20,754 nt of DNA from a bacterium (GTDB lineage: Bacteria; JAMCPX01), in contig JAJYJX010000016.1 in the NCBI GenBank assembly GCA_021789095.1, forward strand, positions 1 to 20,754, given 5' to 3'. Positions 4,512-19,807 of this stretch are shown piece after piece. The position numbers and the translations under genes were made by a program. The notes beneath the pieces were generated by a model. That model was not told the origin of the DNA. It saw only the letters and a list, made by a program, of their open reading frames with translations, and made no database searches. Every line of letters begins with the position of its first letter. Position 1 is the stretch's first letter.

Positions 4512-5188
4512 GATCGGTAGCCCTCAATGTTTACTGGGTCGTACCTCTGTGTGTAGAGTACGCCGGCAAGCGTTATGACGGCCTCTGCAATACCAAATAT
4601 GGTTAGGTGCCCGATCATCATGGCCGGTACGGCTATCCTTATGCTGAACGGGAAGTACAGCGGTTTTCCATCGGCGGCATGTTCAAGGAGAGGCTGCAGG
4701 CCTAATTCAATTCCTGCAAACAGCGCTGCAATGTTTATTCCTGTATACCCGGCTATGAGTGCACCGGCCCACCGCCTTTTTGAGTTTATGCCTGTTTTTA
4801 TGGTGAGAAGTTTATAGGTATAAAAACCTGCAAAAGGCATAATAAAGCCCATGTTGAAGCAATTTGCCGCAAATATTGTGATACCGCCGTCACCAAACAC
4901 AATTGCCTGAACAAATAAAACAACGCTCATCACGAGGAGTGCCGTCCATGGATTAAACAATAAAGCTATAAGCACGCTTCCTACAACGTGACCGGTAGTG
5001 CCGCCGGGGACAGGAATATTAAACATCATGATCACAAAGCTGAAAGCTGCTGAGACGGCAGTGTACGGAATATACCTGCCTTTCAGGGTACGGCTGACAA
5101 CCCTTGAGCCTATTGTCCATAAAGGAAGCATAAGTATATAAAAAAAACCGTAAGTCTTTGGACCAAGATAACCATCGGGTATATGCAT
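4508..5188 (-). CDS. cbiM: Nickel/cobalt ECF transporter substrate-binding membrane subunit (CbiM/NikM type)
   Basis: A 226-residue polytopic membrane protein that binds the metal ion. It begins with the family hallmark MHIPDGYL, whose N-terminal Met-His2 forms part of the metal site, and it contains the conserved segment around GGTTGHVVGS (about residues 62-71) with a second metal-site His. About six to seven hydrophobic helices follow, ending near AEAVITLAGVLY. The length is typical for the CbiM core without a fused CbiN. The start is fixed by the hallmark; AAGGCGGCCGGAAAA precedes it as a weak ribosome binding site. It is the first gene of the minus-strand importer operon and probably uses the promoter at 5222-5250. 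Nickel specificity is inferred from the hydrogenase neighbourhood. Confidence 0.93.
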   Translation of the reverse strand: MHIPDGYLGPKTYGFFYILMLPLWTIGSRVVSRTLKGRYIPYTAVSAAFSFVIMMFNIPVPGGTTGHVVGSVLIALLFNPWTALLVMSVVLFVQAIVFGDGGITIFAANCFNMGFIMPFAGFYTYKLLTIKTGINSKRRWAGALIAGYTGINIAALFAGIELGLQPLLEHAADGKPLYFPFSIRIAVPAMMIGHLTIFGIAEAVITLAGVLYTQRYDPVNIEGYRS

Positions 5189-5540: not shown

Positions 5541-5701
5541 GTATAATGAAATAAGAAGGAATATATTTAAATCAATTAAAGAATACATTTTATTAATATT
5601 AAATAAAAAATTAAATTAAAACATAATTCTAATTCTTACCCAAAAAATAACTAGCAATGTGTAGCTGCAGAGGGAGGGACAAAAGGGAGAGAGTGTTACT
5701 T

Positions 5702-6856
5702 ATGGGGCGAGAGATTAAAAGCGAGCCTGCATTGCTACAAGAGGTCAGGAAGTACGGGCAATTTGATGTTGGAGGCTGTTATAATTGCGGCAGTTGTACA
5801 ATATCCTGCCCGTTATCAGGCAATTTAACCACTTTCCCGCGAAGGGTCATGCGTTATGTTCTGTTTGGACTGAAAGACTTGTTAAACAGCAGTCTGGAGC
5901 CATGGATGTGTTATTACTGTGGTGATTGTTCGACAGCATGTCCACAGCAGGCAGAGCCCGGAGAGGCAATGATGACCCTTCGAAGATACCTTACAGCACA
6001 ATATGACTGGACAGGACTTGCCTCACGTCTATACAGCTCAGCGGCATGGAGAATAGGGGCCAATTTCTTTACCGGACTATTCGTTTTTCTAATTGTTTTT
6101 TTCTATCATTTATACGACGTAAAACTCTCAGGCAGTGATTTCTTTCCTCGCTCTATGCCGCTGGAGCACATGTTCCCTACCATGATATATTTTACTCTGG
6201 CTGTTTTTGTCATACCAATAGCGCTCCTGCTGACAAATGCTGCCAGAATGCACTCGTTTATCATTGGCAGGGAAAACATTAAGGTACCTTTATCTTTATA
6301 CCTGAAACAACTGGGAACATTTGTAGTCCATGCTTTTACACAAAAGCGGTTTCGTGAATGTAAGGATAAAGGCAGATGGATAAAGCACATGATTATGGTA
6401 TCCGGTTTTATTGTTCCCTCCCTTCTGGTTTTATTTTTTCTTAGGTGGTTTCAAACCGATAACATCTATCCCGTTTACAATCCCCAGAGATGGCTTGGGT
6501 ACCTGGCTACAATAGCTTTATTGTACGGCAGTATAGAGACTGTCATAGGAAGGATACGAAAGAAGGGACAGATGCATAGGTTTTCTTCACCTGATGACTG
6601 GGTGTTGCCGGCATTTTTGTTCCTTACAGCAGTGAGCGGAATCACTATTCATATATGCAGGTATGCCGGGTTAGCCATGGTAGCCCATTATGCATATTTT
6701 GCCCATATAATAATAGTGGTGCCTATGCTTGTTATTGAAATACCGTTTGGTAAACTTTCACATATTTTTTATCGTCCGCTGGCTATTTATTTACATTCTG
6801 TCAAACAAAGAGCTGCTATAGAACAAAACAATCTTACGGAGGCCAAAGTGGCATGA
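5702..6856 (+). CDS. Membrane iron-sulfur protein, HdrC-type ferredoxin domain fused to a cytochrome b-like domain (QmoC/HmeC-like)
   Basis: A 384-residue likely membrane anchor and quinone-side subunit. Residues 26-36 and 70-80 carry two CxxCxxCxxxCP motifs (Cys26/29/32/36 and Cys70/73/76/80), expected to bind two [4Fe-4S] clusters as in HdrC. About six helices follow (roughly 117-139, 158-182, 229-250, 263-284, 300-320 and 327-348), with several His in or near helices (136, 229, 317, 329, 335, 354) that could hold haem b. This layout matches QmoC and related subunits that exchange electrons with menaquinone. ATG 5702 is preferred over the in-frame ATG 5657: GGGAGAGAG lies just before 5702, nothing like a ribosome site precedes 5657, and the conserved part starts after it. 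First gene of the operon behind the sigma-54 promoter; its stop overlaps the next start (ATGA). Confidence 0.87.
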   Translation: MGREIKSEPALLQEVRKYGQFDVGGCYNCGSCTISCPLSGNLTTFPRRVMRYVLFGLKDLLNSSLEPWMCYYCGDCSTACPQQAEPGEAMMTLRRYLTAQYDWTGLASRLYSSAAWRIGANFFTGLFVFLIVFFYHLYDVKLSGSDFFPRSMPLEHMFPTMIYFTLAVFVIPIALLLTNAARMHSFIIGRENIKVPLSLYLKQLGTFVVHAFTQKRFRECKDKGRWIKHMIMVSGFIVPSLLVLFFLRWFQTDNIYPVYNPQRWLGYLATIALLYGSIETVIGRIRKKGQMHRFSSPDDWVLPAFLFLTAVSGITIHICRYAGLAMVAHYAYFAHIIIVVPMLVIEIPFGKLSHIFYRPLAIYLHSVKQRAAIEQNNLTEAKVA

Positions 6857-7734
6857 ACCGAGATCAAAGCAGGAAAGTAGGTTCTGCCATGGTTGTTGGT
6901 GGCGGTATAGCAGGCATGCAGGCGGCACTTGACCTGGCAGAATCCGGTATAAAAGTCTATCTCATTGATAACAAGCCGGCCATCGGCGGGGTAATGTCCC
7001 AGCTTGACAAGACATTCCCTACAAATGACTGCGCCATGTGCATTATGGCACCCAGACTTGTCGCAATAGGAAGGCACAAGGATATTGAGGTCATTACATT
7101 GGCAGATATAGAGAAAATAGATGGAGGACCAGGGAATTTCAGAATAACATTAAACAAGAAGGCAAGGTATGTGGATGAGGCCACATGCACGGGCTGCGGA
7201 ACATGCGTTTCAAACTGTCCTACAAGCAACCGGGTACAGCCGGTACAAAAGGAAAAGATAGAACTTCAGCCGGAATTTAAAGAAAAGGTTATAGAAATAG
7301 TAGAAAGTAATAAAAACAGGGATGGCCCGCTTATGCCTATTCTTCAGCAGATAAACTCAGCTTTTAATTATCTCCCGGAAAATACCCTGAACTATATCTC
7401 TCAGGAGACAGGTTATCCCCTGGCTCATATTCTGAGAATAGCAACATTCTATAGTGCATTCAGTATAGTACCAAGAGGAAAACATATTGTAAACGTATGT
7501 ATGGGTACCACATGCTATGTGCGGGGGAGCGAAAGGTTAATGGAAAGGTTCAGCGATCTCTTAAAAGTCAAACCGGAAGAAACAACGCCTGACATGATGT
7601 ATACGCTCAAAGGGGTAAGGTGCATAGGATGCTGCGGACTGGCCCCGGCGGTTATGGTGGGGGATACGGTATTTGGCAAGGTAACAATAAAAGATGTGCC
7701 GGATATCTTAAGTAAATATAAGAAGACGGCTTAA
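6853..7734 (+). CDS. Fusion protein: N-terminal FAD-binding part of HdrA joined to NuoE/HndA-type [2Fe-2S] subunit
   Basis: A 293-residue chimera. Residues 11-122 are the N-terminus of an HdrA/QmoA-type flavoprotein: FAD dinucleotide motif GGGIAG (16-21), the HdrA hallmark around DKTFPTNDCAMC (Cys60, Cys63), GRHKDIEV, and a [4Fe-4S] motif Cys112/115/118/122. HdrA homology stops there. Residues about 140-290 are a NuoE-like thioredoxin-fold [2Fe-2S] domain with ligands Cys216, Cys221, Cys257 and Cys261 (CMGTTC and CIGCCG). The rest of this HdrA unit continues in the gene at 10143-13403 from about its residue 195. NuoE normally hands electrons between NuoF and the next iron-sulfur carrier, so here it would connect NAD(H) chemistry to HdrA flavin. 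A GGAGG sits 10 bases before the start. I do not know a named gene with this fusion. Confidence 0.88.
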   Translation: MNRDQSRKVGSAMVVGGGIAGMQAALDLAESGIKVYLIDNKPAIGGVMSQLDKTFPTNDCAMCIMAPRLVAIGRHKDIEVITLADIEKIDGGPGNFRITLNKKARYVDEATCTGCGTCVSNCPTSNRVQPVQKEKIELQPEFKEKVIEIVESNKNRDGPLMPILQQINSAFNYLPENTLNYISQETGYPLAHILRIATFYSAFSIVPRGKHIVNVCMGTTCYVRGSERLMERFSDLLKVKPEETTPDMMYTLKGVRCIGCCGLAPAVMVGDTVFGKVTIKDVPDILSKYKKTA

Positions 7735-7736
7735 AA

Positions 7737-8120
7737 ATGGCTAAACTTACAATAGATGAATTAAGAAAAAAAAGGGAAGAGGCAAGGAAGGGCATATACC
7801 TCAGACAAGGCGAATTCAAGGGAAAGATAATAGTACACATGGGTACGTGCGGGGTCGCAGCAGGTGCGAGGCAGATTGTCTCGGCTTTTATGGAAGAGAT
7901 AGAGGAAAGCGGAAGAAAAGACGTCATGCTTACAACCTCGGGATGTGCAGGACTTTGTTCAAGGGAGCCGATGGCAACCGTAGAGACACTGAATACCCCG
8001 CCTGTTAAATATATAGACCTCACACCCGACAAAGTTAAAAAGATCTTCAAGACCCATATCATGGAAGGAAACATAGCTGCTGAATATGCCATTGGCATAG
8101 GCTCCGAAAGAGGGGGATAA
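7737..8120 (+). CDS. hndB: HndB-like thioredoxin-fold ferredoxin subunit
   Basis: A 127-residue soluble protein resembling HndB of NADP-reducing hydrogenases and the extra ferredoxin-like domains of HydB/NuoF proteins. Visible family features are the stretch HMGTCGVAAGARQIV (Cys38), then TTSGCAGLCSREPMATVE (Cys70, Cys74). Only three Cys are present in all, so a standard four-Cys [2Fe-2S] cluster is uncertain; the first CX4C pair of the fold is reduced to one Cys. It begins three bases after the stop of the HdrA-NuoE fusion and ends three bases before the NuoF gene. It is probably a structural or electron-transfer part of the diaphorase module. Confidence 0.85.
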   Translation: MAKLTIDELRKKREEARKGIYLRQGEFKGKIIVHMGTCGVAAGARQIVSAFMEEIEESGRKDVMLTTSGCAGLCSREPMATVETLNTPPVKYIDLTPDKVKKIFKTHIMEGNIAAEYAIGIGSERGG

Positions 8121-8123
8121 CAT

Positions 8124-10076
8124 ATGGCTGTCAGAAGGATAGATCTTATGTTGTGCACAGGGACAGGATGTGTTGCAGGCGGAGCCTTCCGGATAAAAGA
8201 CACCATTGAAAATGAAATAACAAAATACGGACTTCAGAATGAAGTGTCCGTTGTAATTACGGGCTGCAACGGCTCTTGTGGTCAGGGTCCACTTATGGTA
8301 GTCCAGCCGGACGGTATTTTCTATGGATGGCTCAAACCCGAGGATATTCCTTTCCTTGTTCAGGAACATTTCTTGAAGGGGAGACCTGTAAAAAGGCTGA
8401 TGTTTGTACCCCTTGAGAGGAAAGAGCCTGTTCCTCTAATGTCCAATATACCGTTTTTCCAGAAACAGATGCTCATAGTCTTGAGGAATAAAGGGATCAT
8501 AGATCCTGAAAAGATCGATGAATATATAGCAAGGGACGGGTATACAGCCATAGAGAAGGTCCTTCCCTTAATGAAACCGGATGAAGTTATAGAAGAGATT
8601 ATGAGATCAGGGCTCAGGGGCAGAGGTGGCGCCGGGTTTCCGACAGGCAGGAAGTGGAAGGTTTGCAGCGATGAGAGAAAATTCCCTAAGTATATAATCG
8701 GTAATTGTGATGAAGGTGATCCAGGTGCTTATATGGATAGGAGCCTATTCGAATCAGATCCCCATTCTGTTATAGAGGGTATGACGATCGCCGCTTACGC
8801 TATAGGCGCTTCCAGAGGGTATATCTATGTCAGGACCGAATATCCATTGGCCATACGCCGTATGCAGATCGCCCTTTCCCAAGCAAGGGATTATGGTTTG
8901 CTCGGTAAAAAGATCCTCGGCTCGGATTTCGATTTTGATGTAGAAATAAGAGAGGGTTCAGGAGCATTCGTTTGCGGAGAGGAAACTTCCCTTATACACT
9001 CGATCGAAGGAAAGAGTCCCGAGCCGAGGCAAAGACCGCCGTTTCCTGCCCAGATCGGTATATGGGGTTGTCCGACTGTTATAAACAATGTTGAGACACT
9101 CGCAACCGTTCCTGTAATAATCAACAGGGGTGCGGACTGGTTCTCAAAAATAGGCACCGCAACGAGCAAAGGTACAAAGATTTTCTCGCTTGTCGGAAAG
9201 ATAAACAACACAGGACTGATCGAGGTACCCATGGGTATAGCCCTCAGGGAGATAATCTACGAGATTGGCGGCGGCATTCCGAAAAATAAAAAATTCAAAG
9301 CTGTCCAGACAGGCGGGCCGTCGGGCGGCTGCATACCGAATAACCTTATAGGCCTGCCGATCGACTATGAGAGCCTTACAAAATCAGGCTCTATGATGGG
9401 ATCGGGCGGGATGATCGTCATGGATGAAGACACGTGCATGGTTGATGTGGCAAAATTTTTCATACAGTTTACGAATGATGAATCATGCGGCAAATGCACA
9501 GCCTGCAGGGACGGCAGCGAGGCACTGCTGGAGGTTCTGACAAGAATATCAGAAGGAGAGGGCAAGGAAGGGGACGTTGAATTCCTCGAAGAACTCGGAT
9601 TGGCGATAAAGGATGCGTCCATGTGCGGCCTTGGTACTACACTCCCCAATCCTATACTTTCAACAGTCCGGTATTTTAAGGACGAGTATGAAGCCCATAT
9701 AAGGGAAAAGCAGTGCCCTGCCCGGGTCTGCAAAAAATTAATAAAGTATTATGTCGACCCTGATAGATGTGTCGGGTGCTTATTATGTGTTAAAACCTGT
9801 CCCGTTAGTGCAATAAAAGGAGAGCTTAAATACATCCATATTATCGATCAATCGCTCTGTACAAAATGCGGGCAGTGTTTGGAAATCTGCCCTCCAAGAA
9901 TTGCAGCGGTAACTAAACTCACAGGGAAAGAGGCACGGGAACTTCAATCGCTTCCCGGGCCGATCCCTGTGGCAGAATGGAAAAAAACAAAGAGCGCATC
10001 AAAGGGCGATTTTCGGTTTACACCATACAGAGAGGAAACCGATCGGGAACACCGAGGAGACAATGAGGTGCCTTAA
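8124..10076 (+). CDS. hndC: NuoF/HndC-type NAD(P)H-binding FMN iron-sulfur flavoprotein
   Basis: A 650-residue diaphorase subunit that exchanges hydride with NAD(P)(H) through FMN. Order: N-terminal thioredoxin-like [2Fe-2S] domain with Cys11, Cys16, Cys48, Cys52; the NuoF core with the nucleotide/FMN segment GRGGAGFPTGRKW (166-178) and NCDEGDPGAYMDRSL (from about 194); EGSGAFVCGEETSL (277-290); an SLBB region (about 355-410); the N3-type [4Fe-4S] ligands Cys455, Cys458, Cys461 and Cys501 in ESCGKCTACRDG and SMCGLG; and a C-terminal 2[4Fe-4S] ferredoxin (Cys549/552/555/559 and Cys579/582/585/589). This is the full architecture of HydB/HndC proteins, including those of electron-bifurcating hydrogenases. 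NADH versus NADPH preference cannot be read with confidence. AGGGGGAT precedes the ATG. Confidence 0.95.
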   Translation: MAVRRIDLMLCTGTGCVAGGAFRIKDTIENEITKYGLQNEVSVVITGCNGSCGQGPLMVVQPDGIFYGWLKPEDIPFLVQEHFLKGRPVKRLMFVPLERKEPVPLMSNIPFFQKQMLIVLRNKGIIDPEKIDEYIARDGYTAIEKVLPLMKPDEVIEEIMRSGLRGRGGAGFPTGRKWKVCSDERKFPKYIIGNCDEGDPGAYMDRSLFESDPHSVIEGMTIAAYAIGASRGYIYVRTEYPLAIRRMQIALSQARDYGLLGKKILGSDFDFDVEIREGSGAFVCGEETSLIHSIEGKSPEPRQRPPFPAQIGIWGCPTVINNVETLATVPVIINRGADWFSKIGTATSKGTKIFSLVGKINNTGLIEVPMGIALREIIYEIGGGIPKNKKFKAVQTGGPSGGCIPNNLIGLPIDYESLTKSGSMMGSGGMIVMDEDTCMVDVAKFFIQFTNDESCGKCTACRDGSEALLEVLTRISEGEGKEGDVEFLEELGLAIKDASMCGLGTTLPNPILSTVRYFKDEYEAHIREKQCPARVCKKLIKYYVDPDRCVGCLLCVKTCPVSAIKGELKYIHIIDQSLCTKCGQCLEICPPRIAAVTKLTGKEARELQSLPGPIPVAEWKKTKSASKGDFRFTPYREETDREHRGDNEVP

Positions 10077-10088
10077 GAGTACACATCC

Positions 10089-10102
10089 CGAAATTAATTT
10101 CG
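10089..10102. repeat. 14-bp perfect palindrome in the gap before the long HdrA fusion gene
   Basis: CGAAATTAATTTCG lies in the 66-base gap between the NuoF-type gene and the HdrA fusion gene, one of the few real gaps in a densely packed operon. Without a loop or a T-run it is a poor terminator. It may be an mRNA structure, a protein site or chance in AT-rich sequence. Confidence 0.35.
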
Positions 10103-10142
10103 ATTTAAAATATGTCAGAAATAATAACAGGGGTATTGAGAC

Positions 10143-13100
10143 ATGGTAAGGCTGACAGTAAATGAGCAAAAGGTAAGTGTGGAGAAAGGCGCCAATCTTT
10201 TAGGTGCAATAGAAAAGCTCGGCATAAAAATTCCAACCCTGTGTTATCATAAAGCACTGACACCCTACGGCGCCTGCAGACTGTGTGTCGTTGAGGTGCA
10301 TGTTCCCGGAAGGGAACCAGCCCTTCAGGCATCGTGTTCATACCCTGCACTTGATGGAATAACTGTATTCACCGACACTGAAAGGGTAAAGAGGGCAAGA
10401 AAAATAGTTGCCGAACTGCTCCTTGCAAGGTGTCCTGAAGCGGAAGCCATTAAATTGATCGCATCCTCGCTCGGGGTTACGGAGCCAAGGATAAGGAAAA
10501 AGAATGATGATTGCGTATATTGCGGACTCTGCGTGAGGATGTGCGAAGAAAGAATGGGTAAGGCGGCTATTGGTTTTACAGGGCGGGGACCAAAGAAAAA
10601 GCTCGAACCGCCGTTCGGCAAACACAATCCCGTGTGCTGGACATGCGGCGCATGCAATTTCATATGTCCTGTTGGCAAAAAGATCACGGTCCTGACAACG
10701 CAAAAACCGTTTATCCCTATCCCGAATTCGTATAACATGGGTCTGGATAAAAGGTCTGCCGCCTACATACTCTACCCACAGGCAGTTCCAAACAAGGCCG
10801 TTATAGATAAGAATTACTGCCTGCATTTAAACTATAATGTGTGCGGGATCTGCAAAGAGGTGTGCGAGGCAAGGGCTATTGATTACGAACAGAAAGACAA
10901 TAAGATTGAGATTGATGCAGGCGCAGTAATACTCTCACCCGGATATGAGGTTTTCGACCCCGGGCTTAAACCCGAACTCGGCTATGGAAAGTATCAGAAT
11001 GTTGTAACGTCACTTGAATTCGAAAGGATCCTTTCTGCATCCGGACCATACTCAGGGGAGGCACTCAGGCCGTCGGACAAAAAGCATCTGAAGCGAATCG
11101 CCTTTCTCCAGTGTGTCGGCTCAAGAGACCATGAAAGGGACTACTGCTCATCGGTGTGCTGTATGTATGCAACAAAGGAGGCGATCATAGCGAAAGAGCA
11201 TGCAGGTGAAGATTTGAAGTGCGATATTTTCTATATGGACATGCGCGCATTCAGTAAAGGCTTTGAACAGTATTATGAATCTGCAAAGAAGCAGGGTATA
11301 CATTACATACGATTCCGCGTCCCCGTAATAAGAGAGCTGCCTGAAACACAAGATCTTGTTCTTGAGTATTTAAATGAAGAGGAGAAGAAGGTTTGCAGTG
11401 AATACGACCTTGTTGTTCTGTCTGTAGGCATGGTACCGCCAAAGCATATAAAAGAGTTCGCGGAGAAGACAGGCATACAACTGAATGAGTTCAATTTCTG
11501 CAGGACATCGGTCTTTGACCCCACGGGTACAGGCAGGGAGGGCGTATATGCGGCAGGTCCGTTTACAGAGCCAAAGGATATCCCGGAAACAGTTATACAG
11601 GCATCATCTGCTGCTTCCAGGGTCATTTCGCTTTTGCATGATGTAAAGGGAACGCTGATAAAACCCAGGGAATATCCGCCTGAGACAGATGTGGGGGGAC
11701 AGGAACCGAGGATCGGAGTATTTGTATGCCACTGCGGGACGAATATAGCAGGTTTTGTAAATGTGCCCGAAGTAGTTGAGTATGCAAAGACCCTTTCCAA
11801 TGTTGTCTATGTTGAGAATAACCTGTACACCTGCTCGAATGATACTCAGGATAGAATGAAACAAAAAATAAAAGAGCATGATCTGAACCGTGTTGTTGTG
11901 GCGTCCTGTACTCCCAGGACCCATGAACCGCTTTTCAGGAACACAATAAGGGAGGCAGGGCTCAATTCCTACCTGTTTGAGATGGCGAATATAAGAGACC
12001 AGTGTTCATGGGTGCATATGCATGAAAGGGAAGCGGCAACAAGAAAATCCGAGGACCTTGTCAGAATGGCTGTGGCAAAGGCGAGACTGCTGGAGCCGCT
12101 GCAGAAGCCTTTGATCAATATAAATAAATCCGCGCTTGTTATAGGCGGCGGACTCGCAGGTATGACATCCTCGCTAGAACTCGCAGGGCAGGGGTTCGAG
12201 GTTTATCTTCTTGAAAGAGAAAAGGAGCTTGGAGGCAATTTAAGGCGCATTCACTATGTGCTCAACGGGGAAGACCCGCAGAATGAATTAAAGTCCATTA
12301 TAGAAAAGGTCAAAACGGATAAAAGGATCCATCTGTTTGTCAGCGCTAAGATACTCAGCATAGAGGGTTCAATAGGAAACTTTAAGACAAGAATCATATC
12401 AGACAGGGAGGAGACGGAATTCGAACACGGCGTGATTATTGTTGCAACCGGTGCGAGAGAATACAGACCAAAGGAATACCTCTACGGCGAAGACGAAAGG
12501 ATTATAACGCAGTCTGAACTTGAAGAAATGATTGCATCGGACGCAGGGTTTGCAAAGAACGGAAGCAAGCCAAATACCATGGTCATGATACAATGTGTCG
12601 GATCCCGTGATAACGAAAGGCCGTATTGTTCGAGGATATGCTGTTCCACTGCGGTAAAAAACGCACTGAAGATAAAAGAAGTCTCTCCGGATACAAATGT
12701 CTATGTCCTTTACAGGGATATAAGAACATACGGTTTCAGGGAGCAATATTATACAAAGGCAAGACAAAAAGGTATTGTATTTATGAGGTACGATGCGGAT
12801 AACAAACCTGTTGTGGCAAAAAATGGAAAGTCCTTGTCTGTGAAAGTATTCGAGCAGACATTAAAACTTCCTGTTGAAATACCGGCTGATATGGTTGTTC
12901 TGTCAGCAGGGATAATTCCTGATCAAGATAACAAGGCAGTCGCTCAGCTCATAAAGGTTCCGTTAACCCAGGAAGGTTTTTTCCTTGAGGCGCACATGAA
13001 GCTCCGTCCGGTTGACTTTGCAACAGACGGAGTATTTGTCTGCGGGCTGGCTCATTTCTCTAAATCAATAGAAGAGAGCATAATACAGGCTCAGGCGGCA

Positions 13101-13403
13101 TCTGCCAGAGCAAACACTATCCTTTCAAAGGACAATCTCGAGCTGGAAGCGACTACATCTTTCATAATAGATGAAAACTGTGACGGATGCGCATACTGTA
13201 TCGAGCCCTGCCCGTATAATGCAATCAGCCTCATTGAATACATGTGGCAGGGGGCAGTGAAGAAAATTGCAGAAGTGAATGAAAGCATGTGTAAGGGCTG
13301 CGGATGCTGTATGGCAACCTGTCCGAAGAGAGGCGCAATGGTCAGGGGATTTACCATGGACCAGATAGAGTCACAGATTGATGCAGCACTGCAGGCTGTA
13401 TAA
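10143..13403 (+). CDS. hdrA: HoxU/NuoG-like ferredoxin domains fused to HdrA: truncated first HdrA unit plus complete second HdrA unit
   Basis: A 1086-residue electron-transfer flavoprotein. Residues 1-80: plant-type [2Fe-2S] domain (Cys34, Cys45, Cys48, Cys65). Residues 120-176: two [4Fe-4S] motifs of the HoxU/NuoG kind (Cys124/127/130/134 and Cys165/168/171/175); the usual His-Cys cluster segment between them and the first domain is degenerate. From about 195 (YNMGLDKRSAAYILYPQAVP) it is HdrA, entering after the FAD-binding N-terminus: Cys226/234/237/241, CVGSRD (324), YCSSVCC (335-340). From about 524 a second, complete HdrA unit follows: VFVCHCGTNI (529, 531), SCTPRTHE (589), FAD motif GGGLAG (668-673), CVGSRD (818), YCSRICC (829-834), and a closing 2[4Fe-4S] ferredoxin (Cys1013-1023, Cys1050-1060). 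Related HdrA proteins bifurcate electrons from hydrogenase through MvhD, whose gene follows. The start has only a weak GGGG site. Confidence 0.92.
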   Translation: MVRLTVNEQKVSVEKGANLLGAIEKLGIKIPTLCYHKALTPYGACRLCVVEVHVPGREPALQASCSYPALDGITVFTDTERVKRARKIVAELLLARCPEAEAIKLIASSLGVTEPRIRKKNDDCVYCGLCVRMCEERMGKAAIGFTGRGPKKKLEPPFGKHNPVCWTCGACNFICPVGKKITVLTTQKPFIPIPNSYNMGLDKRSAAYILYPQAVPNKAVIDKNYCLHLNYNVCGICKEVCEARAIDYEQKDNKIEIDAGAVILSPGYEVFDPGLKPELGYGKYQNVVTSLEFERILSASGPYSGEALRPSDKKHLKRIAFLQCVGSRDHERDYCSSVCCMYATKEAIIAKEHAGEDLKCDIFYMDMRAFSKGFEQYYESAKKQGIHYIRFRVPVIRELPETQDLVLEYLNEEEKKVCSEYDLVVLSVGMVPPKHIKEFAEKTGIQLNEFNFCRTSVFDPTGTGREGVYAAGPFTEPKDIPETVIQASSAASRVISLLHDVKGTLIKPREYPPETDVGGQEPRIGVFVCHCGTNIAGFVNVPEVVEYAKTLSNVVYVENNLYTCSNDTQDRMKQKIKEHDLNRVVVASCTPRTHEPLFRNTIREAGLNSYLFEMANIRDQCSWVHMHEREAATRKSEDLVRMAVAKARLLEPLQKPLININKSALVIGGGLAGMTSSLELAGQGFEVYLLEREKELGGNLRRIHYVLNGEDPQNELKSIIEKVKTDKRIHLFVSAKILSIEGSIGNFKTRIISDREETEFEHGVIIVATGAREYRPKEYLYGEDERIITQSELEEMIASDAGFAKNGSKPNTMVMIQCVGSRDNERPYCSRICCSTAVKNALKIKEVSPDTNVYVLYRDIRTYGFREQYYTKARQKGIVFMRYDADNKPVVAKNGKSLSVKVFEQTLKLPVEIPADMVVLSAGIIPDQDNKAVAQLIKVPLTQEGFFLEAHMKLRPVDFATDGVFVCGLAHFSKSIEESIIQAQAASARANTILSKDNLELEATTSFIIDENCDGCAYCIEPCPYNAISLIEYMWQGAVKKIAEVNESMCKGCGCCMATCPKRGAMVRGFTMDQIESQIDAALQAV

Positions 13404-13418
13404 AAAAGAGGTGATAAG

Positions 13419-13868
13419 ATGGGCGGCAGCGGGTTTGAACCATTAATAATTGCACTCTGCTGCAACTGGTGCTCCTATGCAGGTGCAGATCTCGCCGGGG
13501 TATCAAGAATCCAATACCCTCCCAATGTAAGGATAATCCGTGTGATGTGTTCCGGGATGGTTCATCCGGATTTTGTAATCAGCGCCCTGACAAGGGGAGC
13601 TGATGGCGTTATCATGTGTGGATGCCATCCCGGTGACTGTCATTATCAGGAGGGGAATTTAACGGCCCAGAAAAGGGCAGAGGGCATATACATAATGCTG
13701 GAAGATTTCGGAATAGAGAAAGGGAGATACAAACTAGAATGGGTTTCTGCATCAGAGGGCATAAGGTTTGCTCAGGTGATGAAGGATTTTGTTGAGCAGG
13801 TAAGAAAACTGGGGCCCAATCCGCTGAAAAAAGCGGTGTTGGAGGTTAATAAATGTCTATATCAATAG
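13419..13868 (+). CDS. mvhD: MvhD-type [2Fe-2S] subunit connecting hydrogenase to HdrA
   Basis: A 149-residue protein that carries electrons between the [NiFe] hydrogenase small subunit and HdrA in Mvh-Hdr complexes. The family cysteines are all visible: Cys14, Cys15 and Cys18 in LCCNWCSYAGADLAG, Cys44 in RVMCSGMVHP, and Cys67, Cys69, Cys74 in CGCHPGDCHY; a [2Fe-2S] cluster is expected from the family. The normal length of about 140-150 residues is kept. A strong ribosome site (GAGGTGAT) lies just before the ATG, 15 bases after the long HdrA gene ends. Its 3' end overlaps the start of the next small gene by 16 bases. Its presence is the best evidence that the hydrogenase docks on HdrA rather than on a quinone or F420 subunit. 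Confidence 0.95.
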   Translation: MGGSGFEPLIIALCCNWCSYAGADLAGVSRIQYPPNVRIIRVMCSGMVHPDFVISALTRGADGVIMCGCHPGDCHYQEGNLTAQKRAEGIYIMLEDFGIEKGRYKLEWVSASEGIRFAQVMKDFVEQVRKLGPNPLKKAVLEVNKCLYQ

Positions 13869-14116
13869 CGACAGAAGGTAAAAAGTTCATGTGGGACGGC
13901 ATAGAATACCGGGATGAGAATGAGGCAAAAGCGACAGTGGAAAAATATACATCAGAAGGATTTGAAGCAATGATGATAAAAGAGGACAAATATCTGGAGT
14001 TTACCCGGAGCAGCTGGTACGAAAGCACGTATAAATGGGATGTCAAAGGTGAAAAATATCTGGTGTTTACACGCAGGGTAATTGTGCAGGGGGCAGTGGC
14101 AGAGCGTACCTACTGA
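13853..14116 (+). CDS. Small unknown protein inserted between mvhD and the hydrogenase small-subunit gene
   Basis: An 87-residue soluble protein I do not recognise. It is charged, rich in aromatic residues (Trp14, Trp55, Trp62 and many Tyr/Phe), without Cys, His, membrane helix or signal peptide. A short internal repeat is visible: KYLEFTR at 46-52 and KYLVFTR at 68-74, each after an acidic or Lys-rich turn, suggesting a small beta-rich fold with two similar strands. A strong GGAGGT lies 8 bases before the ATG, and the start overlaps the mvhD end, so it is very probably translated. Its position inside the block of structural hydrogenase genes suggests a small complex subunit, chaperone or assembly factor; this is inference only. 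Confidence 0.75.
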   Translation: MSISIATEGKKFMWDGIEYRDENEAKATVEKYTSEGFEAMMIKEDKYLEFTRSSWYESTYKWDVKGEKYLVFTRRVIVQGAVAERTY

Positions 14117-14138: not shown

Positions 14139-15065
14139 ATGGGTATAACAGTTGCAGAAGAGTGGTTCGCTATATGTGGAGGGTGTGAGGTTACGATCCT
14201 TGATCTCGGAGAGAAATTGCTCGACCTGCTGCCTAAACTCGAGTTCCTTCACATGCCGGTAATTATGGACCACAAGGTATACGGACAAAAGGGTGAGAAA
14301 AAGAAAATGGAAATTCCACAGGCAGATGTGGGGATCATTTCAGGCAGCATAAGAAACATTGAGAATAAAGAGCTTGCTCAGGAGATGCGGGAGAAATGTG
14401 GTTCGCTGATCGCCCTTGGAAGCTGCGCGTGTTACGGTGGTATCCCTGCACTGGCAAACCAGTTTAAGGTCGATGAGATCTATGAAAAAGTCTACCGCAA
14501 CTCAAAATCCACAGAATCCGCACCGACACCGGATCAGGAAATTCCTCTTCTTACTGAAAGGGTTTATGCAATAGATGAAGCAGTAAAAGTGGATGTATAC
14601 ATACCGGGGTGCCCACCGTCTCCAGAACTGGTTGCAGATGCTCTTGCATCACTTTTACAGGGCAGGCCTTTCTCAATCCCTGAAAGGAGTGTATGCGACG
14701 ATTGTCCGACAAGCAGGGAAAGAAAGGTAGATATTTCATTAAAGAGACCACTTGAGTCGATTATCCCTCTGGATAAAAAGATCGAGGAGTCCAGATGCTT
14801 TATGGAGTTGGGTTACCTCTGCCTCGGGCCTGTTACAAGATCGGGCTGTGGAGGGCATGAAAAAATCCCGAGATGTATAAAGGGTTATATGCCCTGCAGG
14901 GGATGCTTCGGTCCTATAAGAAAGGGTGCCAACCCTATGGTGGAGATGATGGGAGCACTGGCAAGCATCGGCCTTGATCTGAAGATGATCCCTGACAGGT
15001 CTGCAACATTCCAGAGATACATAGGTGCACAGGGAAGATTAAGACCTGTGCCTGTAAAACAATAA
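14139..15065 (+). CDS. mvhG: [NiFe] hydrogenase small subunit, group 3c-like (MvhG type)
   Basis: A 308-residue cytoplasmic small subunit carrying the iron-sulfur relay between the NiFe site and MvhD. Proximal cluster ligands are Cys13 and Cys16 (AICGGCE), Cys96 (GSCACYGG) and Cys158 (PGCPPSPE). Further Cys for the medial and distal clusters are at 186, 189, 220, 228, 237, 246, 253 and 256 (CDDCP, LCLGPVTRSGCGG, MPCRGCFGPI). There is no twin-arginine signal, in line with a soluble group 3 enzyme. ATG 14139 is chosen because AGAGGT lies 5 bases upstream and the sequence from there (MGITVAEEWFAICGGC) fits the family; an in-frame ATG at 14082 would overlap the previous gene and add 19 unrelated residues. 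Confidence 0.95.
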   Translation: MGITVAEEWFAICGGCEVTILDLGEKLLDLLPKLEFLHMPVIMDHKVYGQKGEKKKMEIPQADVGIISGSIRNIENKELAQEMREKCGSLIALGSCACYGGIPALANQFKVDEIYEKVYRNSKSTESAPTPDQEIPLLTERVYAIDEAVKVDVYIPGCPPSPELVADALASLLQGRPFSIPERSVCDDCPTSRERKVDISLKRPLESIIPLDKKIEESRCFMELGYLCLGPVTRSGCGGHEKIPRCIKGYMPCRGCFGPIRKGANPMVEMMGALASIGLDLKMIPDRSATFQRYIGAQGRLRPVPVKQ

Positions 15066-15084: not shown

Positions 15085-16530
15085 ATGGGCGAAAAAATAG
15101 TAATTCAACCTGTTACAAGGATTGAAGGACACGCAAAGATTACAATACAGCTTAATGATGCAGGGAATGTTGAGAATAGCTGGGTTAATGTTATAGAGCT
15201 TAGAGGATTTGAAAAGTTCTGCATAGGGAAGCCTGTTGAAGAGTTACCAAGGATTGTTACAAGTATCTGTGGTGTATGTCCATGGTCGCATCACCTTGCG
15301 AGTGCCAAGGCATGTGATGCGGTATTCGGTGTGGAAATACCATCTGCCGGCAAAAAATTGAGAGAACTCTGCAATTCAATAGCATATACAGAAGAGCATA
15401 TCCTTCACTTCTATTTTCTGGCCGGTTCAGACTTCGTTATTGGTCCGGATGCTGATTATTCGATAAGGAATGTTATAGGTATTGCTCGTAAGATGCCCGA
15501 TGTTGCAAAAAGGGTCGTCAGGTGCAGATGGCTTGGTGCTCAGATGCTGGAGATAGTGTCGGGAAAATCTATCCATCCGGTAACAGCTGTACCCGGCGGG
15601 TTCAGCAAGCCCCTGAGAAAAGATGAGGTTGAGAGATTGAAACCAATGGCACGGGAGGTTCTTGATCTCGCTCAGTTTACAATGGACTATGCAAAAAAGA
15701 ACATATTCCCCCAATACCTTAATGTGGTAAAGACACTCGGTGTTATACAAACAGGCTTCCTCGCAACGGTAAAGAATGACGGTGCGCTTGAACTTTATAA
15801 CGGGATTCTCAGGATGATGACGCCGGACGGGAAGTATGAGGATTTTACCTATGACAGGTACACTGATTATATAGCAGAACACGTAGAACCATGGTCGTAT
15901 CTGAAATTCCCTTACATGAAAAAGGCAGGCGGGTTTTCAATGGATCTTAATAACCCTGTTGGCATATACCGCACCAATACACTTGCCAGGATCAATGTAT
16001 GCGATAAGATATCAACACCTCTTGCACAGATAGAACTTGAAGAATTCAGAAAGAACTTTGGGAGACCAGCACAACTTACGCTTCTGTACCACTGGGCAAG
16101 ATTGATAGAGCTGCTTCATAATGCAGAAAGGGCAGTTGAGTTGTTAAATGGTCCGGAGATAACGAGCATTGATATCAGGAAGCTTGTGGTACCCAGGGCA
16201 GCACGGGGTGTCGGCTGTGTCGAGGCCCCGCGGGGCACGCTGATCCATGACTATGAAACAGACTCAAACGGGATCGTGACAAATGTGAACCTGATCGTCG
16301 GAACCACACACAATAATGCTCCAATAAATATGTCGGTGAAAAAGGCAGCCATGCAGGTTATAAAAGACGGAGAATACGATGAAGGAATACTGAACAGGAT
16401 CGAGATGGCAATACGCGCATACGACCCGTGTATGTCCTGTGCAACGCACGATATAGATGGAACACTGCCGGTGAAGATCAACATAGTAGATAAGAAAATG
16501 AATGTAATCGGCACACTAAAAAACTTTTAG
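15085..16530 (+). CDS. mvhA: [NiFe] hydrogenase large (catalytic) subunit, group 3c-like (MvhA type)
   Basis: A 481-residue catalytic subunit that binds the Ni-Fe(CN)2CO centre and interconverts H2 with protons and electrons. The L1 motif SICGVCPWSHH gives Cys62 and Cys65, and the C-terminal motif DPCMSCATH gives Cys449 and Cys452, the four expected metal ligands. RIEGHAKI (12-19) is the usual N-terminal signature. Maturation should cleave after His455 and remove a 26-residue tail, typical of group 3 enzymes; the protease gene follows 57 bases downstream. GGAGGG stands before the start. The neighbourhood with mvhD, mvhG and hdrA points to group 3c, but HoxH-like group 3d enzymes also sit with NuoEF-type partners; the presence of MvhD decides for 3c. 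Confidence 0.96.
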   Translation: MGEKIVIQPVTRIEGHAKITIQLNDAGNVENSWVNVIELRGFEKFCIGKPVEELPRIVTSICGVCPWSHHLASAKACDAVFGVEIPSAGKKLRELCNSIAYTEEHILHFYFLAGSDFVIGPDADYSIRNVIGIARKMPDVAKRVVRCRWLGAQMLEIVSGKSIHPVTAVPGGFSKPLRKDEVERLKPMAREVLDLAQFTMDYAKKNIFPQYLNVVKTLGVIQTGFLATVKNDGALELYNGILRMMTPDGKYEDFTYDRYTDYIAEHVEPWSYLKFPYMKKAGGFSMDLNNPVGIYRTNTLARINVCDKISTPLAQIELEEFRKNFGRPAQLTLLYHWARLIELLHNAERAVELLNGPEITSIDIRKLVVPRAARGVGCVEAPRGTLIHDYETDSNGIVTNVNLIVGTTHNNAPINMSVKKAAMQVIKDGEYDEGILNRIEMAIRAYDPCMSCATHDIDGTLPVKINIVDKKMNVIGTLKNF

Positions 16531-16587: not shown

Positions 16588-17079
16588 ATGGATGATGTTA
16601 CATTGTCTTATTATATAAAACCTGTGCTTGTACTTGGATGCGGCAATCTGCTCTTTGGGGATGACGGCTTTGGCCCAAAGGTTGTAGAATACCTGAAAGA
16701 GAATTGCCCTGTACCGGACCATGTCGCCATAGTTGATGCCGGAACAGGTGTAAGGGATATATTGTTTGATATCGCCATAAGCGAAAGAAAGCCGAGGAAG
16801 ATTATTATCATTGATGCAATGGATGCAGGAAAGGAGCCGGGAGAAATTTTTGAACTGGATGTTTCTCAGATCCCGCAGAAAAAGATAGACGATTTTTCAA
16901 TGCATCAGCTGCCAACATCAAATTTGCTCAGGGAGTTAAAAGAGTTGTGCTCTATAGATGTAAAGATAATCTCTGTGCAGGTGGAGCATATCCCTGATGT
17001 GGTCTCGCCGGGTATTTCTGCATCACTTGTAGGTTCTGTCCGTGACGTATGCGAAAAAGTTCTCAAGGAGTGTGTATAA
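16588..17079 (+). CDS. [NiFe] hydrogenase maturation endopeptidase (HyaD/HycI/FrhD family)
   Basis: A 163-residue nickel-dependent protease that trims the C-terminus of the large subunit after nickel insertion. The N-terminal motif GCGNLLFGDDGFGP (17-30) supplies the first metal ligand (Asp26 where many members have Glu). The second is expected in IIDAMD (Asp79) and the third is a His near MHQLP (His106). VDAGTG (49-54) is also typical. The start is preceded only by a weak GGGATGAAAG; an earlier ATG at 16580 ends at once. The gene lies directly after the large subunit, and its last bases provide the AAGGAG ribosome site for hypA, whose ATG follows the stop immediately. The target is most likely the adjacent large subunit. 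Confidence 0.92.
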   Translation: MDDVTLSYYIKPVLVLGCGNLLFGDDGFGPKVVEYLKENCPVPDHVAIVDAGTGVRDILFDIAISERKPRKIIIIDAMDAGKEPGEIFELDVSQIPQKKIDDFSMHQLPTSNLLRELKELCSIDVKIISVQVEHIPDVVSPGISASLVGSVRDVCEKVLKECV

Positions 17080-17328
17080 ATGCATGAATTGAAGATCACA
17101 GAGGCTGTAATAGAAGAGATAATTGCCCAGGCGCATAGTCACGACTTGAAAAAAATAGAAAAGGTGGTCCTTTCGCTGGGCAGTGAAGCAGATTTTACCG
17201 AGGATGAAATAAAATTCTGTTTTGAGACACTTGTAAAAGGCACGTCTCTGGAAGAAGTGGATCTGGAGTTTAAAGAAAGGGAAGGCAGGGAAGGCTTGAT
17301 AATAGAATCAATAGAAGGAGAGAGATAG
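17080..17328 (+). CDS. hypA: HypA-like nickel chaperone lacking the zinc domain
   Basis: An 82-residue protein matching the nickel-binding half of HypA. It begins with the invariant MHE (His2, Glu3), followed by ITEAVIEEIIAQAHSHDLKKIEKVVLSLG and the FCFETLVKGT region; the C-terminal end GLIIESIEGER matches the last strand of HypA. Usual HypA is about 113 residues and carries two CxxC pairs for zinc between these parts; here DLEFKEREGREG leads directly to the last strand and there is no CxxC. The bases at 17260-17328 contain no hidden Cys codons in frame, so this is a clean deletion rather than a frameshift. Nickel delivery with HypB is the family role; no hypB is seen in the window. AAGGAG upstream supports the start. 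Confidence 0.85.
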   Translation: MHELKITEAVIEEIIAQAHSHDLKKIEKVVLSLGSEADFTEDEIKFCFETLVKGTSLEEVDLEFKEREGREGLIIESIEGER

Positions 17329-17338
17329 CATATTTTCT

Positions 17339-19567
17339 ATGACAGCTTTAAACATCTACATTAACGGGACTGTCCAGGGTGTAGGATTCCGTCCATTTGT
17401 CTACAGGCTTGCAAAAGAAATGGAGCTCAATGGATATGTAAGGAATACACCAAAGGGCGTTGAAATACACATAGAGGGGGAGGCATCGCCGGAACTGTTT
17501 TTGAACAGGCTACGTACAGAGGCACCGCCGAATGCAAGGATTGATAAAATAGAAACTACAAATTCAGAGGGTGATGGATTGAAAGACTTCATAATATTTA
17601 CAACGCAGGAGGGAGAAGCTACCGTCTTTGCTCCCCCCGACCTGTTTATCTGTAACGATTGCCTTGAGGAACTTTTTAACCCGGATGACAGAAGATACAG
17701 GTACCCATTCATAAACTGTACAAACTGCGGGCCCAGGTACACGATTATAGAGCGCCTGCCGTACGACAGGCCCAAAACAGCCATGGGTGACTTCAAAATG
17801 TGTTCAGTATGTGAAGGTGAGTATACTGCCCCCGAAAACAGAAGGTTTCACGCAGAACCTAATGCCTGCCCTGAATGCGGGCCGCAGGTATCATTTATAG
17901 AAGACGGAATAAATAGCGGGGACTTAGCAATAGAAAGGGCAGTAAAAAGCATAAGGGAAGGGAAAATAGTTGCAGTTAAAGGGCTCGGCGGTTTCCATAT
18001 AGTATGTGATCCCTTCAATCAACAAACCGTTCGAAGGCTCAGGAATATGAAAAACAGGGAAAGAAAGCCATTCGCACTCATGGCAAGGAGTGTTGAAGCT
18101 GTAAATGAAATAGCCTACTTCAATGATGCAGAAAGAGAGATGCTCATTTCCCCATCAAGGCCGGTTGTGGTGCTCAATAAGAAGATTGATATAGATAATG
18201 TCTGTCCCGGGATTAATACATACGGGATCATGCTCCCTTATACCCCTATCCATGCGCTTATCATGGAGAGAGTACCTGTTATTATAGCAACAAGTGCGAA
18301 TTTCCGTGACAGCCCAATTCTAAGAGACGAAAAAGAAGGCTTACCTGAACTCTCCGACTGTATCCTCACCCATAACAGGGGAATTGTTATGAGATGCGAT
18401 GACAGTGTACTCAAGATTGTGAACGGCAAAAGGATATTCCTCAGGAGGGGAAGAGGGTTTGTACCAGAGCCTGTTGAAATAAACCATAAGTGCCTTTTTA
18501 AGGTCCTTTCTCTCGGAGGTGAGCTGAAAAATACAATAACAATACTGAAAGATGGCTATTTAATAACAAGCCAGTACCTCGGAGATATGGAGGATCTGAG
18601 AAACAGGCGGTATCTGGAAGAAGTTATTGAGCATTTCAGCACCCTTTATTCATTCAGCCCTGATATAATTTCCTGTGATCTCCATCCTGATTTTACAACA
18701 ACAGGAATGGCGGACAGATGGGGGAAACATGCAGTTAAAGTTCAACATCATATTGCACATATATACGCAGTACTCGCAGAATACGGCCTCAGCCCTGAAG
18801 AGCCGTTCCTTGGTGTTGCCTTTGATGGTACGGGGTATGGCGAGGACGGTAATATATGGGGAGGAGAGTTTTTTATAGGCGGAAGCGGAAGGATAAAAAG
18901 GCTTTTGCATCTTAAATATGTCCCCCAGCAGGGAGGCGATCTCTCGGTAAAGGAACCATGGAGGATGGCGTTAAGTTATTTAATCCCGGCTATCGGAGGG
19001 GTCAAAAATATCGGTTTGCTCGGAGCAGTGGAAGATAAAAAGGTAAAATACGCAATGGATGCGATAGCAAAAAAGATTAATTCGCCAATGACATCCTCGA
19101 TGGGAAGATTGTTTGATGCTGTTTCTGCCATTACCGGGATTGCGCCTGTGAGGATTGATTATGAAGCAGAGCCAGCAATGAGGCTCGAAAGCACGGCCTC
19201 GGATGATAACAGAGACTCTTATCAGTTTGATATAAAAGAAGATGAAATAGATATGAAAAGGATGATTGCCGAAATTGTGAATGAAATTGAGAATAAGGAA
19301 GATGTGTCCGTAATATCCGGGAAATTCCATAATACTATTGCCGTGTTAATCGCAACGGTTGCAGCCAACGCCAAAGATAGATTCGGCATAACAAGGATTA
19401 TCCTCAGCGGCGGGGTGTTTCTTAATGCTGTGCTTTTAAAAGCATGCATGTGCGTACTCAATGAAAGCGGCATGGACGTTTATGTCCCTGAGAGATTTTC
19501 ACCCGGAGACGAAGCGATTTCACTTGGTCAGGCTTATTATACTGCGTTAAAATTGGGAAGGGGGTAA
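17339..19567 (+). CDS. hypF: HypF carbamoyltransferase for hydrogenase cyanide ligand synthesis
   Basis: A 742-residue maturation enzyme that turns carbamoyl phosphate into carbamoyl-adenylate and loads it on HypE for the CN ligands of the NiFe site. Domains in order: acylphosphatase-like (about 1-90, VQGVGFRPFVYRLA), two zinc fingers (Cys105/108/127/130 and Cys155/158/177/180), YrdC-like (about 196-380) and the Kae1/TobZ-like carbamoyltransferase (about 385-742) with the metal-binding HHIAH (470-474) and DGTGYGEDGNIWGGEF (496-511). Length and motifs are complete. The ribosome site (AGGAGAGAG) lies rather far from the ATG and ends in the hypA stop region, so the start could be inefficient, but the N-terminus fits the family exactly. 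Confidence 0.96.
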   Translation: MTALNIYINGTVQGVGFRPFVYRLAKEMELNGYVRNTPKGVEIHIEGEASPELFLNRLRTEAPPNARIDKIETTNSEGDGLKDFIIFTTQEGEATVFAPPDLFICNDCLEELFNPDDRRYRYPFINCTNCGPRYTIIERLPYDRPKTAMGDFKMCSVCEGEYTAPENRRFHAEPNACPECGPQVSFIEDGINSGDLAIERAVKSIREGKIVAVKGLGGFHIVCDPFNQQTVRRLRNMKNRERKPFALMARSVEAVNEIAYFNDAEREMLISPSRPVVVLNKKIDIDNVCPGINTYGIMLPYTPIHALIMERVPVIIATSANFRDSPILRDEKEGLPELSDCILTHNRGIVMRCDDSVLKIVNGKRIFLRRGRGFVPEPVEINHKCLFKVLSLGGELKNTITILKDGYLITSQYLGDMEDLRNRRYLEEVIEHFSTLYSFSPDIISCDLHPDFTTTGMADRWGKHAVKVQHHIAHIYAVLAEYGLSPEEPFLGVAFDGTGYGEDGNIWGGEFFIGGSGRIKRLLHLKYVPQQGGDLSVKEPWRMALSYLIPAIGGVKNIGLLGAVEDKKVKYAMDAIAKKINSPMTSSMGRLFDAVSAITGIAPVRIDYEAEPAMRLESTASDDNRDSYQFDIKEDEIDMKRMIAEIVNEIENKEDVSVISGKFHNTIAVLIATVAANAKDRFGITRIILSGGVFLNAVLLKACMCVLNESGMDVYVPERFSPGDEAISLGQAYYTALKLGRG

Positions 19568-19570
19568 ATA

Positions 19571-19807
19571 ATGTGCCTTGGTGTGCCCTTAAGGTTGATT
19601 GAAACAAAAGGTGAGACAGGGACAGCGGAAATGGGAGGAATTAAAATGCGGGTAAATCTTAGCTTTGTTGAGAACCCGAAACCCGGCGACTACGCTATTG
19701 TGCATGCAGGTTTTGCTATAACTATAATGGATGAAAGGTCTGCAGAGGAAACGATGGATGTCATAAGGCGGTGTATAGATATGGGAGATGAAGGGCGTGA
19801 AAAATAA
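19571..19807 (+). CDS. hypC: HypC hydrogenase maturation chaperone
   Basis: A 78-residue chaperone that works with HypD to build the Fe(CN)2CO unit and deliver it to the large subunit. It begins with the invariant MCLGVP; Cys2 becomes the N-terminal functional Cys after Met removal. His45 in IVHAGFAI is the conserved second functional residue. The compact OB-like fold and length are usual. It starts three bases after hypF, behind GGAAGGGGG. After its stop the operon shows its longest gap, 275 bases, before hypD. HypC paralogues such as HybG exist, but the gene's place here gives no reason to prefer that name. Confidence 0.95.
   Translation: MCLGVPLRLIETKGETGTAEMGGIKMRVNLSFVENPKPGDYAIVHAGFAITIMDERSAEETMDVIRRCIDMGDEGREK

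Follow-up and report, generated by a model that had tools for sequence, protein, structure and literature searches.

A split HdrA unit with a NuoEFG-type module encoded between its halves in a bacterial hydrogenase operon

HdrA is among the main electron-bifurcating flavoproteins of anaerobes, and its exchange of electrons with nicotinamide adenine dinucleotide, NAD(H), has often been guessed from gene neighbourhood. HdrA is normally a single protein. In the bacterial DNA analysed here (contig JAJYJX010000016.1 of assembly GCA_021789095.1; hereafter the window, a whole contig of 20,754 bases, G000:C121), the first of two HdrA units is divided between two fusion proteins, P0001 and P0002, and the parts of an NADH-dehydrogenase module are encoded between and beside its halves. 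We consider it likely that the halves reassemble, and that the HydBC/Bfu-type NADH module takes the place of a soluble ferredoxin at the HdrA exit port, which would link the hydrogenase and a QmoC-like arm of the same operon to NAD(H). The wiring of HdrA to NAD(H) is set here by gene architecture and pinned to one domain. The recurrence of this break among many unrelated bacteria, and in some archaea as well, suggests a working design that plugs NAD(H) into a hydrogen-using, electron-splitting enzyme.

The two halves of HdrA unit 1

The genes of the operon follow in the order QmoC-like, P0001, HndB-like, NuoF-like, P0002, MvhD, a small open reading frame, MvhG, MvhA and maturation genes. The features that carry the argument are as follows.

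6853-7734, + strand: P0001, the N-terminal half of HdrA unit 1 fused to NuoE
6853..7230, + strand: N-half of HdrA unit 1 (HdrA_N), P0001 residues 1-126
7264..7731, + strand: NuoE/HydC (BfuC)-like [2Fe-2S] thioredoxin domain behind HdrA_N, P0001 residues 138-293 (PF01257, E 1e-43, residues 148-290)
7737..8120, + strand: P0004, HndB-like [2Fe-2S] protein (similarity to the 2Fe-2S ferredoxin family NF041612; sub-threshold PF01257 match)
8124..10076, + strand: P0003, NuoF/HydB (BfuB)-type protein with an N-terminal [2Fe-2S] domain, a flavin mononucleotide (FMN)/NADH domain and two C-terminal [4Fe-4S] clusters (PF01512, PF10589)
10143-13403, + strand: P0002, NuoG ferredoxin domains followed by the remainder of HdrA unit 1 and a second HdrA
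10143..10682, + strand: NuoG/BfuA-like ferredoxin domains, P0002 residues 1-180 (PF13510)
10710..11642, + strand: C-half of HdrA unit 1 (HdrA_C), P0002 residues 190-500
11700..13400, + strand: HdrA unit 2, P0002 residues 520-1086 (5odc 2-236 and 504-647)

P0001 carries GGGIAG at residues 16-21, TFPTNDCAMC and a single CxxCxxCxxxCP motif at 112-123, and its residues 11-125 align to positions 141-256 of the NCBIfam HdrA2 model. P0002 opens with NuoG/HoxU-like sequence (residues 1-98), bears two further CxxCxxCxxxC motifs at 124 and 165, and then enters HdrA where the canonical chain continues, with residues 191-500 aligned to positions 255-562 of the model. The two proteins overlap by only about two columns of this model; on the solved HdrA 5odc, the P0001 part covers residues 145-258 and the P0002 part about 256-510. 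A sequence-only reading of the window had already described both fusions, the NuoE-, HndB- and NuoF-type genes encoded between the HdrA halves, and halves that complement each other with little or no overlap; the open reading frame coordinates, the Pfam scan and the model alignments agree with it on each of these points.

The unit is thus encoded in two open reading frames, with NuoE-, HndB- and NuoF-type sequence between them, instead of as one polypeptide. A complete thioredoxin-reductase domain that binds flavin adenine dinucleotide (FAD), together with its inserted ferredoxin domain, is obtained only if residues 1-126 of P0001 and 190-500 of P0002 are combined. It is the inserted ferredoxin domain that is interrupted, at a point between its pair of 4Fe-4S motifs. 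The N-half stops directly after CTGCGTCVSNCP, the first of these motifs (C112-C122), and the C-half, which bears the second (Cys226, Cys234, Cys237 and Cys241), picks up at IPNSYNMGLDKRSAAYILYPQAVP, about 14 residues beyond the last NuoG motif (CWTCGACNFICPV). Neither half has lost any of the four cysteines of a ferredoxin motif, and the FAD signatures are retained as well. The dinucleotide-binding motif GGGIAG is on P0001, and E294 and K345, which correspond to E356 and K409 in 5odc numbering and are invariant in an alignment of 11 tandem sequences, are on P0002. From the offset of the 5odc alignment, Cys63 of P0001 is the equivalent of Cys197.

Unit 2 is an unbroken HdrA with an N-terminal CHCG domain, a second thioredoxin-reductase domain and two C-terminal [4Fe-4S] clusters, and a reading of its sequence finds no CxxC at the Cys197 position. 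With its N-terminal domain present and no cysteine at the Cys197 position, unit 2 complements unit 1, in the manner of published tandem HdrAs. Such Type II tandems, namely Moorella MetVF-HdrABC-MvhD and HdrA3/HdrA4 of anaerobic methanotrophic archaea (PMC9012536, PMC12054007), likewise consist of two fused units, in which Cys197 and the N-terminal cluster domain complement each other. In these proteins, however, both units form one chain, whereas in the window the FAD/Cys197 half of unit 1 is separate and bears NuoE.

Recurrence and kinship of the split

The sequence-only reading had looked to other genomes for the same two fusions, and this was borne out: the arrangement recurs at 27 other loci. 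The NuoE fusion is not universal, since in many relatives HdrA_N, at about 280-340 amino acids, is a free-standing protein and NuoE a separate one. Full-length HdrA_N-NuoE fusions were found in four further genomes among 193 searched. An alignment search of 386 genomes returned 13 full-length NuoG-HdrA_C fusions in 11 genomes, which are set apart from all other HdrAs by a score gap from 604 to 459 bits. A scan of named genomes added fusions in Spirochaetota, Cloacimonadota, Planctomycetota, Thermodesulfobacteriota, Fibrobacterota, Bipolaricaulota, Armatimonadota, Calditrichota and GN15, and, on the archaeal side, in an Altiarchaeales archaeon, a Thermoplasmata metagenome-assembled genome (MAG) and another archaeal MAG. 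The split spans no fewer than eight phyla of bacteria as well as some archaea; contamination of single MAGs is possible, and the overall pattern does not depend on any single one. According to the gene-order table, HdrA_N, NuoE, (HndB), NuoF and NuoG-HdrA_C are collinear in 28 of the 32 NuoG-HdrA_C loci, the window included, and an HndB-like gene occupies the equivalent position in L031, L032, L047-L049 and L055. At L077 the locus is cut by a contig end.

Two architectures are found. In the first, a single HdrA is split and its N-terminal domain stays on the N-half, which is often free of NuoE; these operons, of the form hdrC-hdrB-[HdrA_N]-nuoE-nuoF-[NuoG-HdrA_C]-mvhDGA, are Hdr-Mvh operons with an interrupted hdrA, and HdrB has been confirmed in L040. 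In the second, which includes the window, a second HdrA continues in the same chain as HdrA_C. A search of eight relatives from the same phylum returned no further copy, which suggests horizontal acquisition.

The closest kin of the window halves are not split. In two separate quick trees, HdrA_C and HdrA_N of the window are each sister to the HdrAs of L060 and L061 from Acidobacteriota, with support of 98% and 96%, respectively, in the Shimodaira-Hasegawa-like approximate likelihood ratio test (SH-aLRT); the identities are 62/58% for HdrA_C and 72/68% for HdrA_N, and unit 2 is 67-82% identical to L060/L061. Both Acidobacteriota proteins are one-chain HdrAs that carry an insert at the inserted ferredoxin domain, shown in L061 to be of GltD type. 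The two window halves also change in step: their distances correlate with r 0.79 over 23 split loci, no more weakly than those of the two ends of unbroken HdrA (r 0.71, n=48; 0 of 2000 shuffles). Because each window half has, in its own tree, the same one-chain HdrAs as sister, we regard the halves as two parts of one protein, and because these relatives are GltD-inserted, NAD(P)H modules appear to have been exchanged within one domain. The NuoE, HndB, NuoF and NuoG parts of the window have counterparts only in split operons (nine loci compared). Taken with the kinship of its HdrA, the window therefore looks like an Acidobacteriota-type complex in which the NAD(P)H module was exchanged, and its copy may have arisen in this way.

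HdrAs with an in-chain GltD/NfnB-like NAD(P)H domain have been described as Type III (PMC12054007; PMC9012536). They resemble the window in that their inserted ferredoxin domain is likewise interrupted by a module for pyridine nucleotides, and the Acidobacteriota operons share further genes with the window: a QmoC-like gene precedes the HdrA of both L060 and L061, and MvhDGA follows in L061 (the L060 contig ends earlier). In contrast to the window, where the gene is split and the module consists of NuoE, HndB, NuoF and NuoG, the Type III chain is unbroken and its GltD-type module enters after PQAVPNxFxI. Entry of GltD at the exact residue of the split was considered and rejected, as its point of entry lies about 30 residues further along that domain. 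The sequence-only reading knew of no described system with the arrangement of the window; this must be narrowed, since in-chain GltD/NfnB inserts in the same domain are published (PMC9012536, PMC12054007). Within the literature that could be searched, no account of a split HdrA that houses a NuoEFG module was found, though an earlier mention may exist.

A single origin of the split was rejected when all split HdrA_C sequences were constrained to one clade (p 9e-10), and one clade of the tandem-type splits was disfavoured (p 0.016); the trees came from quick searches, and the groups in the clade tests were defined by architecture. Because the splits do not form one clade, the split and its module arose, or moved, more than once. 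Three proteins from Desulfobulbales (L063:5495-9931, L064:2439-6317 and L065:9068-12865, the last from Desulforhopalus sp. IMCC35007) join HdrA_N to HdrA_C within a single chain, with first a polyferredoxin stretch and then a pair of NuoG-like ferredoxins between them. They resemble NuoG only modestly (E 1e-6 to 7e-8, 25-35% identity), and part of this may be a general ferredoxin likeness. Neither NuoE nor NuoF was found nearby, and these proteins are possibly re-fused split HdrAs.

Several minor observations concern the same site. In the FPTxDCxx(C) motif, the codon at the equivalent of Cys63 (Cys197) is either a Cys codon or TGA at 27 loci (including L052, L058, L073, L080, L089 and L091), and neither TAA nor TAG was seen there at these loci. 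The TGA probably encodes selenocysteine at the ligand of the inter-subunit cluster; selenocysteine in HdrA is already known (PMC13188914), and these loci would add split HdrAs to its occurrence. At L130:3336-6770, the split HdrA is directly followed in its operon by another HdrA, whose FAD half and C-half are set apart by a large insert, and at L089:760-1551 HdrA_N is followed by another insert (WVDRIRIDEARCIQCGDCVRAC...) at the same site. At L059, NuoF also seems to be truncated.

The NADH module, the proposed assembly and its alternatives

The BfuBC core of the Bfu family consists of HydB/HydC-type subunits, and a bifurcating BfuB is marked by an N-terminal [2Fe-2S] and two C-terminal [4Fe-4S] clusters (PMC9304861). 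P0003 has these features, residues 1-590 aligning to residues 1-590 of NiFe-HydB (7t2r_B, E 3e-244), and BfuC is provided by the C-terminal part of P0001, for which HydC 8a6t_C is the best NuoE-type PDB match both by sequence and by fold. Among the Foldseek matches listed for P0001, only the NuoE/HydC type appears. The NuoG domains of P0002 match 9mqx_A, a chain of the bifurcating tungsten aldehyde oxidoreductase, over residues 9-178. No GltD domain was found by Pfam or NCBIfam in P0001 or P0002, and NuoE and NuoG domains stand in its place. The window thus shares BfuB-, BfuC- and BfuA-like parts with HydABC, NiFe-HydABCSL, NfnABC/StnABC, Wor-Bfu and Bam-Bfu (PMC9304861), and its NuoG domains look like a BfuA to which a new domain has been attached, as happens in Type 1 Bfu. 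What sets the window apart from that family is the attached domain, one half of an HdrA, with the second half borne by BfuC. In PMC9304861, Bam-Bfu is the only case for which HdrA is listed as a module.

In the assembly that we favour, P0001 and P0002 would rejoin to build one HdrA unit from two polypeptides. The FAD site would be completed across the chains, by GGGIAG from P0001 and by E294 and K345 from P0002, and the two clusters of the inserted ferredoxin domain would be common to both. In the methanogen dimer, Cys197 bridges the two HdrAs by ligating the N-terminal cluster of the partner (PMC9012536); Cys63 of P0001 would ligate the N-terminal cluster of unit 2 in the same way. The inserted ferredoxin domain is the low-potential electron exit of HdrA and the docking site of FmdF or MvhB (PMC12350162), and the HydBC/Bfu-type module would be anchored covalently on both sides of this port. 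The sequence-only reading had placed NuoE and the ferredoxin arm on either side of the flavin site; covalent attachment on two sides stands, but the sides are those of the inserted ferredoxin domain.

The Mvh-type [NiFe] hydrogenase MvhAG would oxidise H2 and pass electrons through MvhD to HdrA. From there, the low-potential branch would lead through the exit port to FMN and NAD+, possibly with ferredoxin, and the high-potential branch through the QmoC-like membrane protein to menaquinone. The genome of the window carries VitK2_biosynth genes (menaquinone by the futalosine pathway), no match to CdhC was found in it, and contig C121 gave no CCG-domain match for HdrB; the QmoC-like protein is therefore the likely high-potential outlet. 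The overall direction, from H2 to menaquinone and NAD+ (or ferredoxin), is what this gene content suggests. The methanogen HdrABC-MvhADG complex (5odc, 8rvu) resembles the window in its HdrA units, MvhD, MvhG, MvhA and HdrC-type domain; it differs in having a one-chain HdrA and a free ferredoxin exit, whereas the window has no HdrB on the contig and an HdrC domain fused to a membrane domain.

Several observations weigh against this assembly. The split ferredoxin halves (P0001 102-133 and P0002 117-222) fall below 50 in the predicted local distance difference test (pLDDT) of single-chain AlphaFold models, which we set aside as a test of reassembly because their Fe-S parts are too weak to decide. 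At L054, L059 and L131, NuoG-HdrA_C stands without HdrA_N or NuoE nearby in the fetched DNA, so the C-half may dispense with HdrA_N or find it elsewhere. The residues E356 and K409 are kept by many HdrAs without proof of bifurcation. The high-potential branch is uncertain, given the missing HdrB and a QmoC-like protein below its family cut-off. Finally, the co-divergence of the two halves is partly due to shared ancestry, as it is for unbroken HdrA.

At first sight, the first two of these points could mean that the halves never meet, HdrA_N being a small FAD or cluster adaptor for NuoE while HdrA_C-HdrA2 uses another partner, and the free HdrA_N proteins of many relatives fit such a role. We regard this as improbable: both halves are kept together in 28 of the 32 loci, their ferredoxin-motif cysteines and FAD signatures are intact, they co-diverge like one protein, and one-chain L060/L061 and L063-L065 carry both in one polypeptide. 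A more serious alternative retains the same assembly and reverses its logic. The HydBC/Bfu module would then be a confurcating site, at which NADH and reduced ferredoxin yield mid-potential electrons that enter HdrA through the port and leave through the hydrogenase or the quinone arm. P0003 is of the full HydB type with the features of a bifurcating BfuB, and BfuABC feeding HdrA has been proposed for the Bam complex (PMC9304861). However, MvhDGA lies downstream in the window and in many relatives, and we hold this reversal to be possible, if rather unlikely. The genome is fragmented and the window makes up one contig of it, and the sequence-only reading had named a join error among the findings that would undo the split; an assembly error, a frameshift or a decaying gene is nevertheless extremely improbable. 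The frames are open and free of stops, and the same break and order at 27 other loci, from many independent assemblies and two domains of life, rule out a join error as the explanation.

Beyond the reassembly of the window's own HdrA, we lean towards a broader view in which the inserted ferredoxin domain serves generally as a site where pyridine-nucleotide and polyferredoxin modules can be plugged in. It would have been filled repeatedly, either by in-chain insertion (GltD, polyferredoxin) or by cutting of the gene with NuoEFG threaded between, the latter giving an enzyme in which two polypeptides together complete both the paired 4Fe-4S clusters and the bifurcating FAD, and in which FAD and FMN, as two candidate sites of bifurcation, are connected in series. 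Between them, the split, the GltD-inserted and the polyferredoxin-inserted forms amount to natural experiments on which domain takes new redox modules. If both chains do share the ferredoxin clusters, the result would be an unusual two-chain fold of the bacterial ferredoxin type and a design hint for new bifurcating enzymes. For annotation, the case is a warning that many genes labelled "NuoE", "NuoG" or short "HdrA" are halves of one enzyme.

Surrounding genes

The other features of the operon are listed below.

5657..6856, + strand: P0005, QmoC-like, an HdrC-type double [4Fe-4S] domain fused to an HdrE-like membrane domain (NF038018 qmoC, residues 27-377)
13419..13868, + strand: P0006, MvhD/VhuD (PF02662, E 1.5e-53)
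13853..14116, + strand: small open reading frame of 87 amino acids between MvhD and MvhG
14139..15065, + strand: P0007, MvhG, [NiFe]-hydrogenase small subunit (NF045875 VhuG, 215 bits; likely start ATG 14139)
15085..16530, + strand: P0008, MvhA, [NiFe]-hydrogenase large subunit (NF041785 VhuA, 460 bits; PF00374)
16588..19807, + strand: hydrogenase maturation genes
16588-17079 and 17080-17328, + strand: maturation protease and HypA (TIGR00072, TIGR00100)
17339-19567, 19571-19807 and from 20083, + strand: HypF-like, HypC-like and HypD-like genes, named by open reading frame reading only

P0005 and the start of P0001 overlap by 4 bp. P0005 is 47-49% identical to the QmoC-like gene that precedes the Acidobacteriota GltD-HdrA, and with 194 bits against the NF038018 cut-off of 300 it is QmoC-like only. 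MvhA, MvhG and MvhD, by which the HdrABC-MvhADG group 3c type is recognised, are all encoded in the window according to Pfam and NCBIfam.

The 87-amino-acid product has no Pfam or NCBIfam match. Weak relatives of it occupy the equivalent position in the split loci L032 (tblastn E 2e-7) and L049 (E 3e-6), and L131 has a still weaker counterpart. Upstream of the operon, genes resembling cobalt/nickel transporters of the CbiM/N/Q/O type and a GntR-like regulator, named from their reading frames only, lie at 2508-5188 (- strand) and 1780-2454. The transporter-like genes, which adjoin the hydrogenase operon, probably serve its nickel supply.

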